Assembly (NCBI GenBank): GCA_018970945.1
Contig: JAGWVJ010000007.1
Span: 1-64,000 of the forward strand
Direction of reading: 5' to 3'
Origin: Cyanobacteria bacterium REEB417
GTDB lineage: Bacteria; Cyanobacteriota; Cyanobacteriia; PCC-6307; Cyanobiaceae
Length of the DNA stretch: 64,000 nucleotides
In this document: one piece after another, positions 3,207-52,891 of the stretch
How positions within the stretch are numbered: position 1 is the first letter of the stretch
Layout: every line of letters begins with the position of its first letter
Notes under the pieces: model-generated
Seen by the model: the letters and a program-made list of their open reading frames with translations, nothing else
What the model was told of the DNA's origin: nothing
Database searches by the model: none
Translations under genes and position numbers: made by a program

Positions 3207-3880
3207 TCAGAACTGGTCGGCTTCGGGGGTGATGCCGACCGTGTCGTCGGCAACGCCCTTGGTCAGGAACTTGTTCTCGCTGGTGTCGGTCTGATAAACG
3301 CAGCGCACGATCGGTTTGTCCTTGATGGAGCCGATGTAGGCAAAGGTGTTCATGCGCTGTTTGCACTGACGCATCTGCTCAGCGGTCACGGCCCCCTCCT
3401 TCTGCAGCACGCTCCAGTTCTCGCGCCTGATCACGCAGCCTGGCTTGAGCGCCGGCTGGGTCACGAAGCTGGAGCTGGGGTTCATCGTCGTGTACAGCTC
3501 GATGTCCATGACAAAGGCGCTGGCCCCCCATTGGCGGCAGAACTCGGGATCGGGTACGGCCATGTCGAGCTGCTGGGAGCTGGCGATGTTGCCCTGATCG
3601 CCCTGGGTGGTGCTGGAAATACCGGTGCCGATGCCGATGCCAACCACCAGCACACCCGCCAGGATCGCGATGGTCCCCACGTTGAACGGCAGCGACGGCC
3701 CTCCGCCAGGGCCCCCGCCGCCGCGCGGAGTGCCGCCGCGACCGCCGTTGCCCCGCTGGTCATAGCCCCGCTCGTCGTAGTCGCGGGCCTCGTAGCTGCG
3801 GCTGTCTTTGCTACGGCTGTCGTAGCTGCGGCTCTCTTGATTGCGGCTGTCGTAGCCGCGTCGGTCGAAGCGCGAGCGCG

Positions 3881-3884
<4 letters not shown>
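3207..3884 (-). CDS. DUF3172 membrane protein with basic Arg/Tyr/Ser-rich N-terminus
   Basis: A 225-residue conserved cyanobacterial protein of unknown function. Residues 1-45 form a charged low-complexity segment built on YDSR / [10 protein letters not shown] motifs, followed by a glycine run and one transmembrane helix ([20 protein letters not shown], about residues 69-88). The soluble C-terminal domain has three cysteines ([28 protein letters not shown]) plus IVRCVYQTD, so disulfides outside the cytoplasm are possible. It shares four bases (3881-3884) with the end of ndhM and is probably co-transcribed with it. The pairing could hint at a link to thylakoid complexes, but that is inference. 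Confidence 0.85.
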
Positions 3885-5784
<1,900 letters not shown>

Positions 5785-48535: not shown

Positions 48536-49180
48536 TCAATTGAACGACTGCAGCAGTTGGCCGTCGCTGTCCTGCAGCACCACGCCGCCCTCGGGGGGGG
48601 CACCGCGGCTCTTGAGAATCCCTGGAAGGGCCTCCAGCACCAGCGCGGCCACGGTGGCGGGCGATTCATCGCTCTGGCAGATCTGCAGGTCGGCCTGGTG
48701 GTACAGCGGCCTGCGTTCCTGCAGCAGCGCCTGCAGCCGGGCTTCCCGGTCGTCGCCCTGCAGCAGGGGGCGTGGGGTCGGGTCGGCGCCGAGCCGAGCC
48801 AGCAGCAGCTCTGCCGGCGCGTCAAGCCAGATCACCACCCCCTGGCGCATGTGTCCCCAGTTCTCGGGACGGGTCACCACACCCCCGCCGGTGGCCACCA
48901 CAAGCGAGTGCCAGGTTGCGATCTGACCGATCACCGCGGTTTCGAGGTCGCGAAACCCGGCCTCGCCCTGCTCGGCGAAGAGCTGCGGGATCGGCCGACC
49001 GGCCACCGCTTCGATGGCGGTGTCGGCATCGACGAAGCGGTAGCCCAACGCATCGGCCAGCGGTCGCCCGACGGCACTCTTGCCGGCGCCCATCATGCCC
49101 ACCAGGTAGAGGTTGAGGCCTTCGAGGCGGCGGCGCAGCGCTGAGGCTTCAGAAGCGGCGTCGATCGGCTCGGCAGTCAC
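48536..49180 (-). CDS. aroK: Shikimate kinase
   Basis: A 214-residue kinase phosphorylating shikimate at O3 for aromatic amino acids. P-loop: NLYLVGMMGAGKSAVGRPLA; substrate Asp in YRFVDADTAIEAVAG; FRDLETAVIG and VVATGGGVVTRPENWGHM (GGG motif); lid Arg in PTPRPLLQG; late RRPLYHQADLQI. A C-terminal tail of ~35 residues (LKSRGAPPEGGVVLQDSDGQ) extends beyond the usual end. It is divergent from the PTPS gene with a 60-base spacer. Confidence 0.95.
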   Translation of the reverse strand: MTAEPIDAASEASALRRRLEGLNLYLVGMMGAGKSAVGRPLADALGYRFVDADTAIEAVAGRPIPQLFAEQGEAGFRDLETAVIGQIATWHSLVVATGGGVVTRPENWGHMRQGVVIWLDAPAELLLARLGADPTPRPLLQGDDREARLQALLQERRPLYHQADLQICQSDESPATVAALVLEALPGILKSRGAPPEGGVVLQDSDGQLLQSFN

Positions 49181-49240: not shown

Positions 49241-50155
49241 ATGACGGCCCAAGGAGCCCCCCACGGCCGCGGCCGGCCCTGCCTGATCACCCGCCGCGCC
49301 CGGTTCAGCGCCAGCCATCTGTACTGGTTGCCCGAACTTTCGGACGACGACAACCGGGCCCGTTTCGGTCCCTGCAGTCAGGCCCCAGGCCATGGTCACA
49401 ACTACGAGCTGATCGTGGCGATGGCCGGGCCCCTCGATGCCAACGGCATGGTGCTCAACCTCTCGGAGGTCAAGCACGCCATCAAGTCCGAGATCACCGC
49501 CCAGCTCGACTTTCGCAGTCTCAACGGTGTGTGGCCCGAGTTTGACCTGGGCCTCCCCGGGGGCAGCCTGCCCACCACCGAGGCCCTGGCGCGGGTGATC
49601 TGGACCCGTCTGGTGACCCATCTGCCCGTGGTGGGCATCCGCCTTTACGAATCTGAAACCCTCTGGGCCGATGTCCTCGGCGACACCATGGAAGCTTTCG
49701 TCTCGATCCGAACCCACTTCGCCGCCGCCCACCGCCTGGCCCGCGAAGAGCTCTCCCAGGCCGACAATGAGGCCATCTATGGCAAGTGCGCCCGGCCCCA
49801 CGGCCATGGCCACAACTACCTGCTGGATGTGACCGTGCGCGGCCAGATCGAGCCGCGTACCGGCATGGTCTGTGATCTGGCGGCCCTGCAGCAGCTGGTC
49901 GAGGACCTGGTGGTCGAGCCGTTTGACCACACCTTCCTCAACAAGGATGTGCCCCACTTCGCCAGCTGTGTGCCCACCGCCGAGAACATCGCCCTGCACA
50001 TCGCCGACATCCTCAGCGCCCCGGTCGCTGCTACGGGTGCGCGTCTGCACAAGGTGCGTCTGCAGGAAAGCCCCAACAACGCCGCCGAGGTCTTTGCCGA
50101 GACTCCCCAGCTGGATTTGATGCCCCAGGCCCTGGAGGCTGCGCTGGTCTCCTGA
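49241..50155 (+). CDS. Tandem 6-pyruvoyl/6-carboxy-tetrahydropterin synthase (two PTPS domains)
   Basis: A 304-residue fusion of two PTPS/QueD-like domains. Domain 1 (~15-150): TRRARFSASHLYWLPELSDD, PCSQAPGHGHNYELIVAM, LDFRSLNG, RLYESETLWADV. Domain 2 (~155-295): IRTHFAAAHRLAREELSQAD, KCARPHGHGHNYLLDVTV, EPFDHTFLNKD, VRLQESPNNAAEV. Zn-binding His residues and the Cys are present in both. Domain 1 has Asp-Phe where domain 2 keeps the catalytic Asp-His pair, so domain 1 may be inactive. The product could be a queuosine or pterin-glycoside precursor; this is not decidable here. Confidence 0.9.
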   Translation: MTAQGAPHGRGRPCLITRRARFSASHLYWLPELSDDDNRARFGPCSQAPGHGHNYELIVAMAGPLDANGMVLNLSEVKHAIKSEITAQLDFRSLNGVWPEFDLGLPGGSLPTTEALARVIWTRLVTHLPVVGIRLYESETLWADVLGDTMEAFVSIRTHFAAAHRLAREELSQADNEAIYGKCARPHGHGHNYLLDVTVRGQIEPRTGMVCDLAALQQLVEDLVVEPFDHTFLNKDVPHFASCVPTAENIALHIADILSAPVAATGARLHKVRLQESPNNAAEVFAETPQLDLMPQALEAALVS

Positions 50156-50165
50156 GGGCGGTTCG

Positions 50166-50813
50166 TTGAGACCCCAGACGCGGCTGGTGCTGGCGATCAG
50201 CCTCGATGGTCGGCTGGCCCCGGCGCACGGGGGGCCTGCCCAGCTGGGCGGCAAGGGCGATCGCCGGGCGCTGGAGGAGGCCCTGACCTGGGCCGACGGC
50301 TGCCTGATCGGCGCCCAGACCCTGCGCCTGCACGGCAGCACCTGTCTGATCAAGGCCCCCGACCTGCAGCTGCAGCGTCGCAGCCAGGGGAGCGCGGCCC
50401 AACCGGTGGCGATCGTGGTCAGCCGCAGCGGTCAGCTGCCGCCTGAGCTGCCGTTCTTTGCCCAGCCCGTCGAGCGCTGGCTGTTGCAGCCCCCGGCAGG
50501 CTCCGGTCGGCCGCCGGGGTTCACCCGTCATCTGCCCTGGCGCGACTGGGCGCAGGCCCTCGCCGTGCTGGGGGAGCAGGGGCTTAGGCGCCTGGTGGTG
50601 CTGGGCGGAGCCCAGCTGGCTGCCGGTCTGCTGCAGGCCGACTGCATCGATGGGATGCAGCTCACCCTCTGCCCACGGCTGTTGGCAGGCCCCCACAGCT
50701 GGGTGCCTGCCGCCACCCGGCTGCCCCTCGGCCAGGCTGGCTGGCAGCTCGAGCACCAGCAGCACCTCGGCGACGGCGAGGTGCTGCTGCGCTACGGCCG
50801 CACTGCGCTGTAG
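50166..50813 (+). CDS. RibD C-terminal-domain (pyrimidine/pterin reductase-like) protein
   Basis: A 215-residue DHFR-like reductase domain without the RibD deaminase half. RLVLAISLDGRLAPAHGGPA, AQLGGKGDRRALEEALTWAD and the NADPH-site GLRRLVVLGGAQLAAGLLQA are family marks. It starts with TTG (50166) 10 bases after the PTPS gene, so the two probably act in one pterin or flavin-like pathway; a pterin reductase is an attractive but unproven idea. Its 3' end overlaps a convergent gene by 22 bases. Confidence 0.85.
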   Translation: MRPQTRLVLAISLDGRLAPAHGGPAQLGGKGDRRALEEALTWADGCLIGAQTLRLHGSTCLIKAPDLQLQRRSQGSAAQPVAIVVSRSGQLPPELPFFAQPVERWLLQPPAGSGRPPGFTRHLPWRDWAQALAVLGEQGLRRLVVLGGAQLAAGLLQADCIDGMQLTLCPRLLAGPHSWVPAATRLPLGQAGWQLEHQQHLGDGEVLLRYGRTAL

Positions 50814-51247
50814 CGCAGCAACAGCTCCCGCAGGGGCAGCTGGTCGAGGCTGCCGGCCTCCAGGCCCAGTTGCCGCGCCAGGCAGCGCTTGACCACCCGC
50901 TCGCTGTCGTCGCCGAACCGGCCGGCCAGCAGGTCGCTGATCACGCTCAGGCTCCTGCCGGAGCGATCGGTTTCCTCGATCAGGCAACGGCTGATGGGGG
51001 CGGCAATCGTCTGGCAGGGTGCCTGCAGCCGGGCCGCCAGCTCACCATCATTGCCGCCCGCCAACTGCCGCACGCAGGCCTCGCTCAGCCTCCACTCCAG
51101 CTGCGGCCGCAGCAGGTCCAGCACTGGCCGCAGCAGTGAGGCCTGGGCCCCACGGATCAGGACGACCTGAATCAGAACAACCTGAATCAATACCGTCTGC
51201 AGCAGGGTTGTCAGGGCCTGCAGCGGCCGGGCAGACCAATGGACCAT
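50792..51247 (-). CDS. Conserved-looking hypothetical protein
   Basis: About 151 residues, not recognised. The N-terminal part contains an amphipathic repeat VLIQVVLIQVVLIRGAQASL produced by 15-bp tandem repeats, then LRPQLEWRLSEACVRQLAGG, CQTIAAPISRCLIEETDRSG and VISDLLAGRFGDDSERVVKR with regular helical character. No signal peptide or metal motif. The start is uncertain: ATG 51247 (chosen) or earlier in the open frame up to 51310. Convergent with the RibD-like gene, divergent from the FemAB-like gene. Confidence 0.65.
   Translation of the reverse strand: MVHWSARPLQALTTLLQTVLIQVVLIQVVLIRGAQASLLRPVLDLLRPQLEWRLSEACVRQLAGGNDGELAARLQAPCQTIAAPISRCLIEETDRSGRSLSVISDLLAGRFGDDSERVVKRCLARQLGLEAGSLDQLPLRELLLRYSAVRP
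51156..51200. repeat. Degenerate 15-bp tandem repeat (three units)
   Basis: ATCAGGACGACCTGA (51156-51170), ATCAGAACAACCTGA (51171-51185), ATCAATACCGTCTGC (51186-51200). The first two share 13 of 15 bases; the third is diverged. It encodes the VLIQV periodicity of the hypothetical protein on the minus strand. Confidence 0.82.
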
Positions 51248-51300
51248 CGGGGCTGAAGCTCTGGTTAGTTTGGCCCGGCACCATCGCTGCCGGCCTGCCC

Positions 51301-52515
51301 ATGGCTGCATTGCAGGCCCGCTGGCACCGGGGCATGGCCGATCTGCCCGAAACGAAGTGGGACCGGCTGCTGGCCGCCGCCTGCGGCAGCCCGGCGCCGT
51401 TGCCCTTCTACCGCTGGCGCTGGTTGCGGCAGCTCGAGAGCAGCGGCAGCATCGTGCCGGAACAGGGCTGGCAGAGCTGCCCCCTGGGCCTCTGGCGCGG
51501 CGATCAGCTCGTAGCGGTGGCCCCGCTGTATCTCAAGGGTCATAGTTACGGCGAGTTCGTCTTTGACCAGAGCTTTGCCGAGCTCGCGGCACGGATTGGT
51601 CTGCAGTACTACCCCAAATTGGTGGGCATGAGTCCGGTGAGCCCTGTCATGGGCTACCGCTTTTGGATCGATCCGGCTGAGGACGCCGCCCAGCTCACCG
51701 CGCTGATGCTCGAGCTGATCGATGGCTTCTGCCTCGAGCACGGCATCCTCAGCGTCAATTTTCTCTATGTCGATCCCGCCTGGGCGCCCCTGGCCGAAGC
51801 CGCGGGCTGTGCGCTCTGGCTCAACCAGCAGAGCACATGGACCAACCCGGGCTTTACGGGCTTTGAGGACTATCTGGCCAGCTTCAACGCCAACCAGCGA
51901 CGCAACATCAAGCGTGAGCGTCGGGCCGTCGAGTCGGCTGGCCTGACGGTCACACCGCTGGCCGGTGACGCGATCCCGCCGGCCCTGCTCGCCCGCATGC
52001 ATGACTTCTATGCCATGCACTGTGCCCGTTGGGGTCCCTGGGGCAGCAAATACCTCACCGAAGCGTTCTTTCAAGCGGCTGCCAGGGACCTGCGCGAGCA
52101 TCTGGTGCTGTTTGCCGCCCATCCCAGCGGCGCGAGCCCCGCCGCCGATCCGCTGGCGATGTCGTTATGTGTGCGCGGTGCCGACCAACTGTGGGGGCGC
52201 TACTGGGGCAGTGCCGTGGAGCTCGAGAACCTCCATTTCGAGGTCTGTTACTACGCGCCGATTGCGTGGGCGATCGAGCAGGGCATCACCCGGTTTGACC
52301 CGGGCGCAGGTGGCAGTCACAAACGCCGCCGCGGCTTTGTGGCCGAGCCGCGCATCAGCCTGCATCGCTGGAGCGACCGGCGTTTCGCCGCGATTCTGCA
52401 GCAGTGGTTGCCCGGGGCCAACGAACAGATGCTGGCGCAGGTCGACGCGATCAACGCCGAGCTCCCGTTCACGGCTGCTTACGATCCACCCCATGCCCCA
52501 ACCCCTGAACCCTGA
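51301..52515 (+). CDS. FemAB-like / DUF482 peptidogalycan biosynthesis protein (GNAT fold)
   Basis: A 404-residue protein of the PF04339 type. FYRWRWLRQLESSGSIVPEQ at the start region, LASFNANQRRNIKRERRAVE, MHDFYAMHCARWGPWGSKYL, and the signature FDPGAGGSHKRRRGFVAEPR near the C-terminus. Relatives are annotated as acyl/aminoacyl transferases in peptidoglycan or polysaccharide assembly, but the reaction is unproven. The ATG at 51301 was chosen because the in-frame region upstream lies over another gene's antisense and looks non-coding. Its 3' end overlaps the next gene by 23 bases. Confidence 0.86.
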   Translation: MAALQARWHRGMADLPETKWDRLLAAACGSPAPLPFYRWRWLRQLESSGSIVPEQGWQSCPLGLWRGDQLVAVAPLYLKGHSYGEFVFDQSFAELAARIGLQYYPKLVGMSPVSPVMGYRFWIDPAEDAAQLTALMLELIDGFCLEHGILSVNFLYVDPAWAPLAEAAGCALWLNQQSTWTNPGFTGFEDYLASFNANQRRNIKRERRAVESAGLTVTPLAGDAIPPALLARMHDFYAMHCARWGPWGSKYLTEAFFQAAARDLREHLVLFAAHPSGASPAADPLAMSLCVRGADQLWGRYWGSAVELENLHFEVCYYAPIAWAIEQGITRFDPGAGGSHKRRRGFVAEPRISLHRWSDRRFAAILQQWLPGANEQMLAQVDAINAELPFTAAYDPPHAPTPEP

Positions 52516-52891
52516 GCAGCAGCATCAGCTCACTGAGCTGGACGCCCGCTTGTCGCAACGGTTCATTGCCCTGGATCCAGAGGGGTACTTCCTGATCAGG
52601 GTCGACCATGGGGCCGCCCAGCTGGTGGTTGAGCACTACGGCAACGGCATCGACGACCGTGGCCTTGCGACCGATCCTGAGACCGGTAGCGTGCTCAGCT
52701 GCAGCGGGGCTGGGCCGCGGCGGCCACTCGCCATCTGGCGGGCATCCAGCGCCAAGCAGCTGGGCATCCAGCTCACCGAAGGAGACGGGCCACACCCATT
52801 GAGCCGGCTTGACCATGCCCTCTATCTGGGCCGCGAACTGCAGCGTGCCGAACAGTGCTTGCTCCAGGGTGCTGACTACATCCAGGATTGA
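52493..52891 (+). CDS. DUF4346 domain protein
   Basis: A 132-residue cyanobacterial protein. The central segment PEGYFLIRVDHGAAQLVVEH and YGNGIDDRGLATDPETG fits DUF4346, a domain also found as a C-terminal part of some dihydropteroate-synthase-related proteins. The end SRLDHALYLGRELQRAEQCL is typical. It overlaps the FemAB-like gene by 23 bases. Function is unknown; proximity to the PTPS and RibD-like genes could hint at pterin metabolism. Confidence 0.8.
   Translation: MPQPLNPEQQHQLTELDARLSQRFIALDPEGYFLIRVDHGAAQLVVEHYGNGIDDRGLATDPETGSVLSCSGAGPRRPLAIWRASSAKQLGIQLTEGDGPHPLSRLDHALYLGRELQRAEQCLLQGADYIQD

Follow-up and report, generated by a model that had tools for sequence, protein, structure and literature searches.

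A conserved, apparently ancient pseudo-domain in the dual-domain 6-pyruvoyl-tetrahydropterin synthase of cyanobacteria, and its RibD_C neighbour as a tentative dihydrofolate reductase candidate

The window analysed here, a stretch of 64,000 nucleotides of cyanobacterial DNA, encodes at positions 49241..50155 (+) a dual-domain 6-pyruvoyl-tetrahydropterin synthase (PTPS; PTPS-II by motif) of 304 amino acids with an ATG start. Pfam PF01242 matches this protein twice (whole-protein E-value 7.7e-61), in agreement with the tandem PTPS fusion that a first-pass annotation had read from the same open reading frame (ORF). Domain 1 covers residues ~14-147 (49280..49681, +) and domain 2 residues ~150-286 (49688..50098, +), and the two halves are 33% identical to each other. 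A RibD-like reductase had been placed 10 bases further on, and it is indeed present: a stand-alone RibD_C protein of the dihydrofolate reductase (DHFR) fold (50166..50813, +; RibD_C E-value 9.3e-21), lacking the DxPxLxxR motif of canonical RibD, starts with TTG at 50166 after the PTPS stop. The third and fourth conserved members of the cluster are a FemAB_like protein (PF04339; 51019..52515, +), the start of which is uncertain, and a PterinBD-DUF4346 protein (PF14251; 52493..52891, +). The latter two genes overlap (51019-52891), and the order PTPS, RibD_C, FemAB-like, DUF4346 is found in 61 of the 68 named picocyanobacterial loci. A 172-aa ORF without a Pfam match lies opposite the cluster between the RibD_C and FemAB-like genes (50792-51310, -), and has relatives in 17 of these 68 loci. 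The divergent upstream neighbour, a shikimate kinase gene (48536..49180, -), is conserved in picocyanobacteria, and is taken here as context outside the system. The source genome (1.96 Mb, 79% complete) has picocyanobacterial close relatives, i.e. Synechococcus, Cyanobium and Prochlorococcus records.

Both halves of the PTPS keep the residues expected from the first-pass reading, i.e. the Zn histidines and the Cys-x5-HGH motif: H26, C45, H51 and H53 in domain 1, and H164, C183, H189 and H191 in domain 2. The catalytic Asp-His pair, on the other hand, is intact in domain 2 as D229-H230 (H230 codon cac, 49928-49930), whereas domain 1 has D90-F91 at this place (codons gac, 49508-49510, and ttt, 49511-49513). 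In addition, domain 1 carries the glutamates E114 and E137, and domain 2 E248 and E276. A re-alignment revealing a displaced His in domain 1 had been named as an outcome that would overturn this reading, but the window protein has no His at residues 85-101, and only 8 of 153 homologues have any His in this interval, at inconsistent places; rescue of domain 1 by a shifted His is therefore rejected. Judging from these residues, PTPS catalysis is very probably absent from domain 1.

The fusion itself is already known, and the window protein is an orthologue of the known dual-domain enzyme. A 2006 title by Kong, which speaks of a 'single or dual domain structure' and belongs to work on the PTPS of Synechococcus elongatus PCC 7942, is among the references of PMC5041015, PMC3546692 and PMC5227711. 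Furthermore, the S. elongatus PTPS-2 primers given in PMC5227711, a paper that cites Kong 2006, fit without a single mismatch at the two ends of a dual gene of 903 bp in a genome resembling S. elongatus (locus L187), and thus the S. elongatus enzyme that has been tested was probably the dual protein. Domain 1 of the L187 protein has Asp-Tyr, and hence also lacks the His. We found no description of the loss of the His in domain 1 among the listed matches of the literature searched, and Kong 2006, represented there by its title, may describe it.

The dual PTPS was matched in 136 of 151 genomes of the same family, including all 94 of this sample with at least 90% completeness and at most 5% contamination, a frequency well beyond what chance would give. 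In the other families of the class, a strong match (E-value below 1e-70) was counted by hand in 71 of 79 genomes, the remaining eight having a weak match (4) or none (4). Outside the class all matches were weak (E-value 6.7e-8 or worse), except for those in two genomes, G171 and G179. From this class-wide distribution, the fused PTPS is the usual form in oxygenic cyanobacteria, and the window protein is ordinary for its clade, neither a local oddity nor a one-off. Several variants were also seen. Five triple PTPS fusions of 430-439 aa were read (L142-L146, from G222, G292, G194, G172 and G196), and eight genomes of the class survey have a frame of such length in which two matches overlap. The class genome G210 encodes, besides its dual copy, a single-domain, catalytically complete PTPS elsewhere (L153). 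One locus (L064) comes from a record whose title names a Bifidobacterium breve metagenome assembly, yet is clearly picocyanobacterial (80% identity), and the record looks mislabelled or contaminated.

The residue tally comprises 153 fused proteins of oxygenic cyanobacteria: 109 picocyanobacterial loci, the window's own included, and 44 others. Among them, 143 domain 1 sequences are distinct, and some genomes are probably present twice. The tally omitted the unfused L150 and L151, the single-domain L153, the partial L160 and L001-L003, and took the last domain of triple-domain proteins as domain 2. Domain 2 is complete in all 153 proteins, while the catalytic His of domain 1 occurs in none of them, which supports the annotation's suggestion that domain 1 is probably inactive; the dual enzyme assayed from S. 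elongatus, provided that the L187 gene encodes it, likewise has no His in domain 1. The residue replacing the His is Phe in 144 of the 153. All 109 picocyanobacterial domains 1 combine this Phe with the full set of Zn ligands and the Cys, and some chemistry in them may therefore be conceivable. In the 44 other proteins the replacement is Phe (35), Tyr (5), Gly (3) or Asn (1), the Cys of domain 1 is lost in 13, and its Zn histidines are lost at H26 in six, H51 in five and H53 in three, whereas domain 2 keeps all catalytic residues in 44/44.

In spite of the missing His, domain 1 does not behave as a decaying half, and we reject this idea: over 3000 sampled pairs its mean identity is 67.8%, compared with 69.5% for domain 2, and this near-equal constraint argues that domain 1 is kept for a function. 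By sequence, then, the first half of the dual PTPS is a strictly kept pseudo-domain. The Glu of the PTTE motif, which we take from the rat PTPS structures to be the pterin anchor, is present in both domains of all 153 proteins (E114 in domain 1), and the second Glu of domain 1, E137, in 150. As these glutamates persist even in most of the domains 1 that have lost Zn ligands or the Cys, domain 1 might be a putative pterin-binding regulatory site acting as a feedback sensor instead of a structural partner; however, the conserved Glu could equally serve folding, and we regard a regulatory site as unlikely. The reading that we prefer, and consider likely, is that the protein is a cyanobacterial dual-domain PTPS-II of a biopterin-type pathway, in which domain 2 would be catalytic and domain 1 an ancient non-catalytic partner.

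The window protein was modelled with pLDDT 91 and pTM 0.86. Domain 2 of the model superimposes on human PTPS (Z 18.7, 136 residues, rmsd 1.4), and the model aligns over its whole length with uricases (Z 12.7, 222 residues, rmsd 4.0) and with GTP cyclohydrolase IB (Z 11.7, 203 residues, rmsd 4.7). The last strand of domain 1 (residues 141-146) and the first strand of domain 2 (151-164) are separated by four residues, and this short gap, together with the uricase alignment, favours a single barrel in which the two T-folds lie next to each other. The model thus suggests a uricase-like pair of domains, with the reservation that packing taken from a monomer model may misassign contacts that belong to the homo-oligomer. 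PTPS forms rings of three, according to the accessible text of PMC7546909. The first-pass annotation had envisaged pseudo-trimers with alternating active and regulatory sites, and this part of it fails on geometry, as domains cannot take turns around a ring of three when each chain contributes two of them. Either an even ring would be needed, or the two kinds of domain would have to be segregated into separate rings; an even ring is used by uricase.

Side-by-side packing also raises the question of a composite active site, in which the Zn site and Cys of domain 1 would work with Asp229-His230 of an adjacent domain 2. In PTPS the Cys comes from one subunit and the Asp-His pair from another, as in the rat PTPS structures; in principle, His230 of a nearby domain 2 could complete the site of domain 1. 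The PTPS catalytic triad is called 'intersubunit' in the title of Burgisser 1995, listed among the references of PMC7546909 and PMC10767420, and interdomain sites are present in bimodular QueF, likewise a tandem T-fold enzyme, according to the accessible text of PMC5372742; the predicted packing with its four-residue strand-to-strand linker and the invariant Zn histidines and Cys of the picocyanobacterial domains 1 would fit such a site as well. However, if domain 1 provided the Zn site and the Cys, the reverse of the pattern seen outside the picocyanobacteria would be expected, where it is domain 1 that has lost these residues in part of the proteins and domain 2 that is always complete. The domain 2 site thus appears to need neither from domain 1, and we consider a composite site quite unlikely.

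The two genomes outside the class, G171 and G179, which belong to one family of the same phylum, hold a different arrangement: two adjacent single-domain PTPS genes (loci L150 and L151), the first with Asp-Phe (YDFKHLN) and the second with Asp-His. A tree of 61 domains contains a split with support 99/93: on one side are the two unfused Asp-Phe genes and all 25 domains 1 used, and on the other 25 domains 2, five middle domains of triple fusions, the two unfused Asp-His genes, the one extra single-domain copy and rat PTPS. Given this placement of the unfused genes, the His would have been lost before the fusion, and the pseudo-half is probably older than the fusion, provided that the tree and the two genomes are correct. 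The middle domains of the triple fusions have the QueD-type spacing CxxxHGH and group in the tree with domain 2 of the same family. No plasmid relative of the unfused Asp-Phe gene was matched at an E-value of 1e-10, and a search of G171 and G179, the two genomes covered from their family, gave no further unfused pairs. An unfused Asp-Phe/Asp-His gene pair that resembles the pre-fusion state and can be read in two genomes is new, and it opens to testing a sequence of events in which duplication came first, loss of the His second and fusion last.

The gene following the unfused pair in both genomes encodes a short-chain dehydrogenase/reductase (SDR); among the NCBIfam models it matches NF005672 best, with a score under the cut-off of that model. 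Two picocyanobacterial SDRs encoded next to folE score above this cut-off as members of the family (E-values 2e-110 and 2e-103), and one of the two is 38 and 41% identical to the SDRs that follow the unfused pairs. FolE was found in all 40 genomes of at least 98% completeness, and the best sepiapterin reductase-like SDR lies less than 2.5 kb from folE in 31 of 40 genomes. This SDR, shared between the folE neighbourhood and the unfused PTPS pairs, appears to tie FolE, PTPS and a reductase together. The pterin pathway to which the annotation had pointed is supported. The animal sepiapterin reductase model TIGR01500 is uninformative alone, matching an SDR in 41 of 41 genomes and passing its cut-off in none. 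FolE was not found in the window's own genome, which is 79% complete; its SDR of the NF005672 family is cut by a contig end, which may be the reason. Under the preferred reading of a dual-domain PTPS-II, FolE would make dihydroneopterin triphosphate, which the dual PTPS would most likely convert to 6-pyruvoyl-tetrahydropterin in a biopterin-type pathway, with the NF005672-family SDR as the likely next enzyme. Domain 2 would carry the PTPS chemistry, and domain 1, an ancient paralogue that would have lost its catalytic His before the gene fusion, would be an obligate partner completing the ring, its pterin pocket probably still there in view of the conserved Glu.

The assignment to PTPS-II follows the motif definitions given in the accessible text of PMC5041015, i.e. 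CxxxxxHGH for PTPS-II, CxxxHGH for PTPS-I and ExxHGH for PTPS-III, where it is also reported, with reference to Kong 2006, that in S. elongatus PCC 7942 PTPS-I is not needed for biopterin/BH4 and PTPS-II has the canonical activity in vitro. The PTPS-II motif is present in both domains (C45/H51-H53 and C183/H189-H191), with five residues between the Cys and HGH instead of the three of QueD/PTPS-I, and the corresponding segments, QAPGHGH and RPHGHGH, are without the Glu of PTPS-III. Zn histidines, Cys and Asp-His occur together in at least one domain, namely domain 2, of all 153 homologues. The best sequence matches of domain 2 are human and rat PTPS (E-values 1.7e-32 and 1.2e-29). The evidence is not free of conflict: the E-values against rat reported for S. 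elongatus in the accessible text of PMC5041015 are better for PTPS-I (6e-31) than for PTPS-II (5e-20), and the dual protein, with 51% identity and 128 bits to rat PTPS, is by this closeness the better fit to 'PTPS-I', whereas the motif, the primer paper and the Kong title say PTPS-II. That the window protein is of the QueD type (PTPS-I) or the folate type (PTPS-III) is very unlikely in our judgement, even though it passes the cut-off of the QueD model TIGR03367 of NCBIfam (115.9 vs 89.25 bits) and fits the PTPS-I rat E-values better, since CxxxxxHGH stands in both domains in place of CxxxHGH or ExxHGH, the best structures are animal PTPS, an SDR directly follows the unfused pair, and the same genome encodes a separate PTPS-family protein with CxxxHGY. 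This other protein (L161, 2848-3525, -, on contig C22 of the window's genome) reads CRFVHGY instead of CxxxHGH. Its frame is partly overlapped by an opposite-strand ORF at 3308-4057, which we presume to be HisI/HisE from its appearance.

The RibD_C neighbour is in our view a better lead than the dual PTPS itself. In every one of the 109 picocyanobacterial loci, counting that of the window, its gene comes after PTPS on the same strand; among 29 loci from other cyanobacteria, none shows this order within the available flanks. Each of the 40 genomes of at least 98% completeness has at least two RibD_C matches. The stronger match falls in a long frame, of the kind expected of a bifunctional RibD, and the neighbour is thus a second RibD_C. 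The DxPxLxxR motif, which we chose ourselves from the canonical RibD copies, is present in 6 of 6 canonical RibD proteins read, and in none of the stand-alone RibD_C proteins, 68 from picocyanobacteria and 17 from others. By these sequence features the neighbour is a second, non-canonical RibD_C protein and not the RibD of riboflavin synthesis; a role as a spare riboflavin reductase is disfavoured by the absence of this motif. PF01872 is its sole Pfam match at an E-value of 0.001, with no match to DHFR_1 (PF00186). The nearest fold to its predicted model (pLDDT 92) is archaeal Rib7 (Z 27.0), Rv2671 bound to a dihydropteridine ring scores Z 25.4, and canonical DHFR is lower (Z 18.9). The neighbour may have its place in folate chemistry no less than in that of biopterin.

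Canonical DHFR (PF00186) was found in none of 41 genomes of the family. The DHFR gap of cyanobacteria has been posed in PMC12903740 and, for Prochlorococcus, in 2007 in PMC1971073, and for Synechocystis the accessible text of PMC7133116 names FolC alone for these folate steps. Among 77 genomes of the class, seven have DHFR only, 65 RibD_C only, three, all of one genus, both, and two neither, where DHFR means a strong match (E-value below 1e-30) and RibD_C only means RibD_C without a strong DHFR. This near-complementarity gives Fisher p-values of 1.7e-6 by genome and 3.9e-6 by genus (1/7 vs 40/41). Eight weak DHFR_1 hits (E-values 3.5e-6 to 4.7e-4, five over the Pfam cut-off) were scored absent, and those in G341, G350 and G358 fall on small RibD_C-family frames; scoring the five over the cut-off as present gives p = 2.5e-6, and scoring all eight 1.6e-5. 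As the genomes are related, all of these p-values are too small. A switch between DHFR and RibD_C is seen within two families (f5 and f15), and in a PF01872 search of 22 of these 77 genomes the seven with DHFR only hold nothing beyond canonical RibD except, in some, frames no longer than 206 aa. On this basis we propose, tentatively and with somewhat less than even confidence, that the RibD_C protein beside PTPS is a candidate for the missing dihydrofolate/dihydropterin reductase, a stand-in for FolA in most oxygenic cyanobacteria that would have disappeared chiefly from genomes with a canonical DHFR, and that in picocyanobacteria is clustered with a PTPS whose pseudo-half would predate its fusion. 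Against this proposal stand the two genomes with neither gene and the three with both, the nearest fold being Rib7, the low DHFR activity reported for the related Mycobacterium tuberculosis RibD in the accessible text of PMC10812664, and the steady partnership with a FemAB-like protein, which has no evident link to pterin genes. None of the listed matches of the literature searched connects RibD_C with the missing DHFR of cyanobacteria. With a single widespread candidate of complementary distribution, the question of this gap can be tested directly.

Compared with known systems, the window protein is closest to the dual PTPS of S. elongatus PCC 7942, with which it shares the architecture, domain 1 having Asp-Phe in the window and Asp-Tyr in L187. 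The window PTPS sits directly before RibD_C, whereas the L187 gene order is PTPS, a 92-aa ORF, RibD_C, FemAB-like and PterinBD-DUF4346. Animal PTPS (3i2b and 1gtq) shares all catalytic residues with domain 2 (Z 18.7 and 18.5; 44 and 40% identity), but unlike the window protein it is a single-domain enzyme that forms a hexamer of two trimers and has no pseudo-domain. Uricase and GTP cyclohydrolase IB likewise carry two T-folds per chain, which align over both window domains, although their identity to the window PTPS is only ~7-10% and their chemistry differs. Bimodular QueF, as described in the accessible text of PMC5372742, is a tandem of T-folds of which the C-terminal module has retained the catalytic Cys while the N-terminal module has lost it; it belongs to another family and catalyses another reaction, and the picocyanobacterial PTPS still has the Cys in domain 1. 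Finally, the Rv2671-type RibD, a functional analogue of DHFR, has the PF01872 fold in common with the RibD_C neighbour and superimposes on its model over 208 residues (rmsd 2.1), with 24% identity and a score below that of archaeal Rib7.
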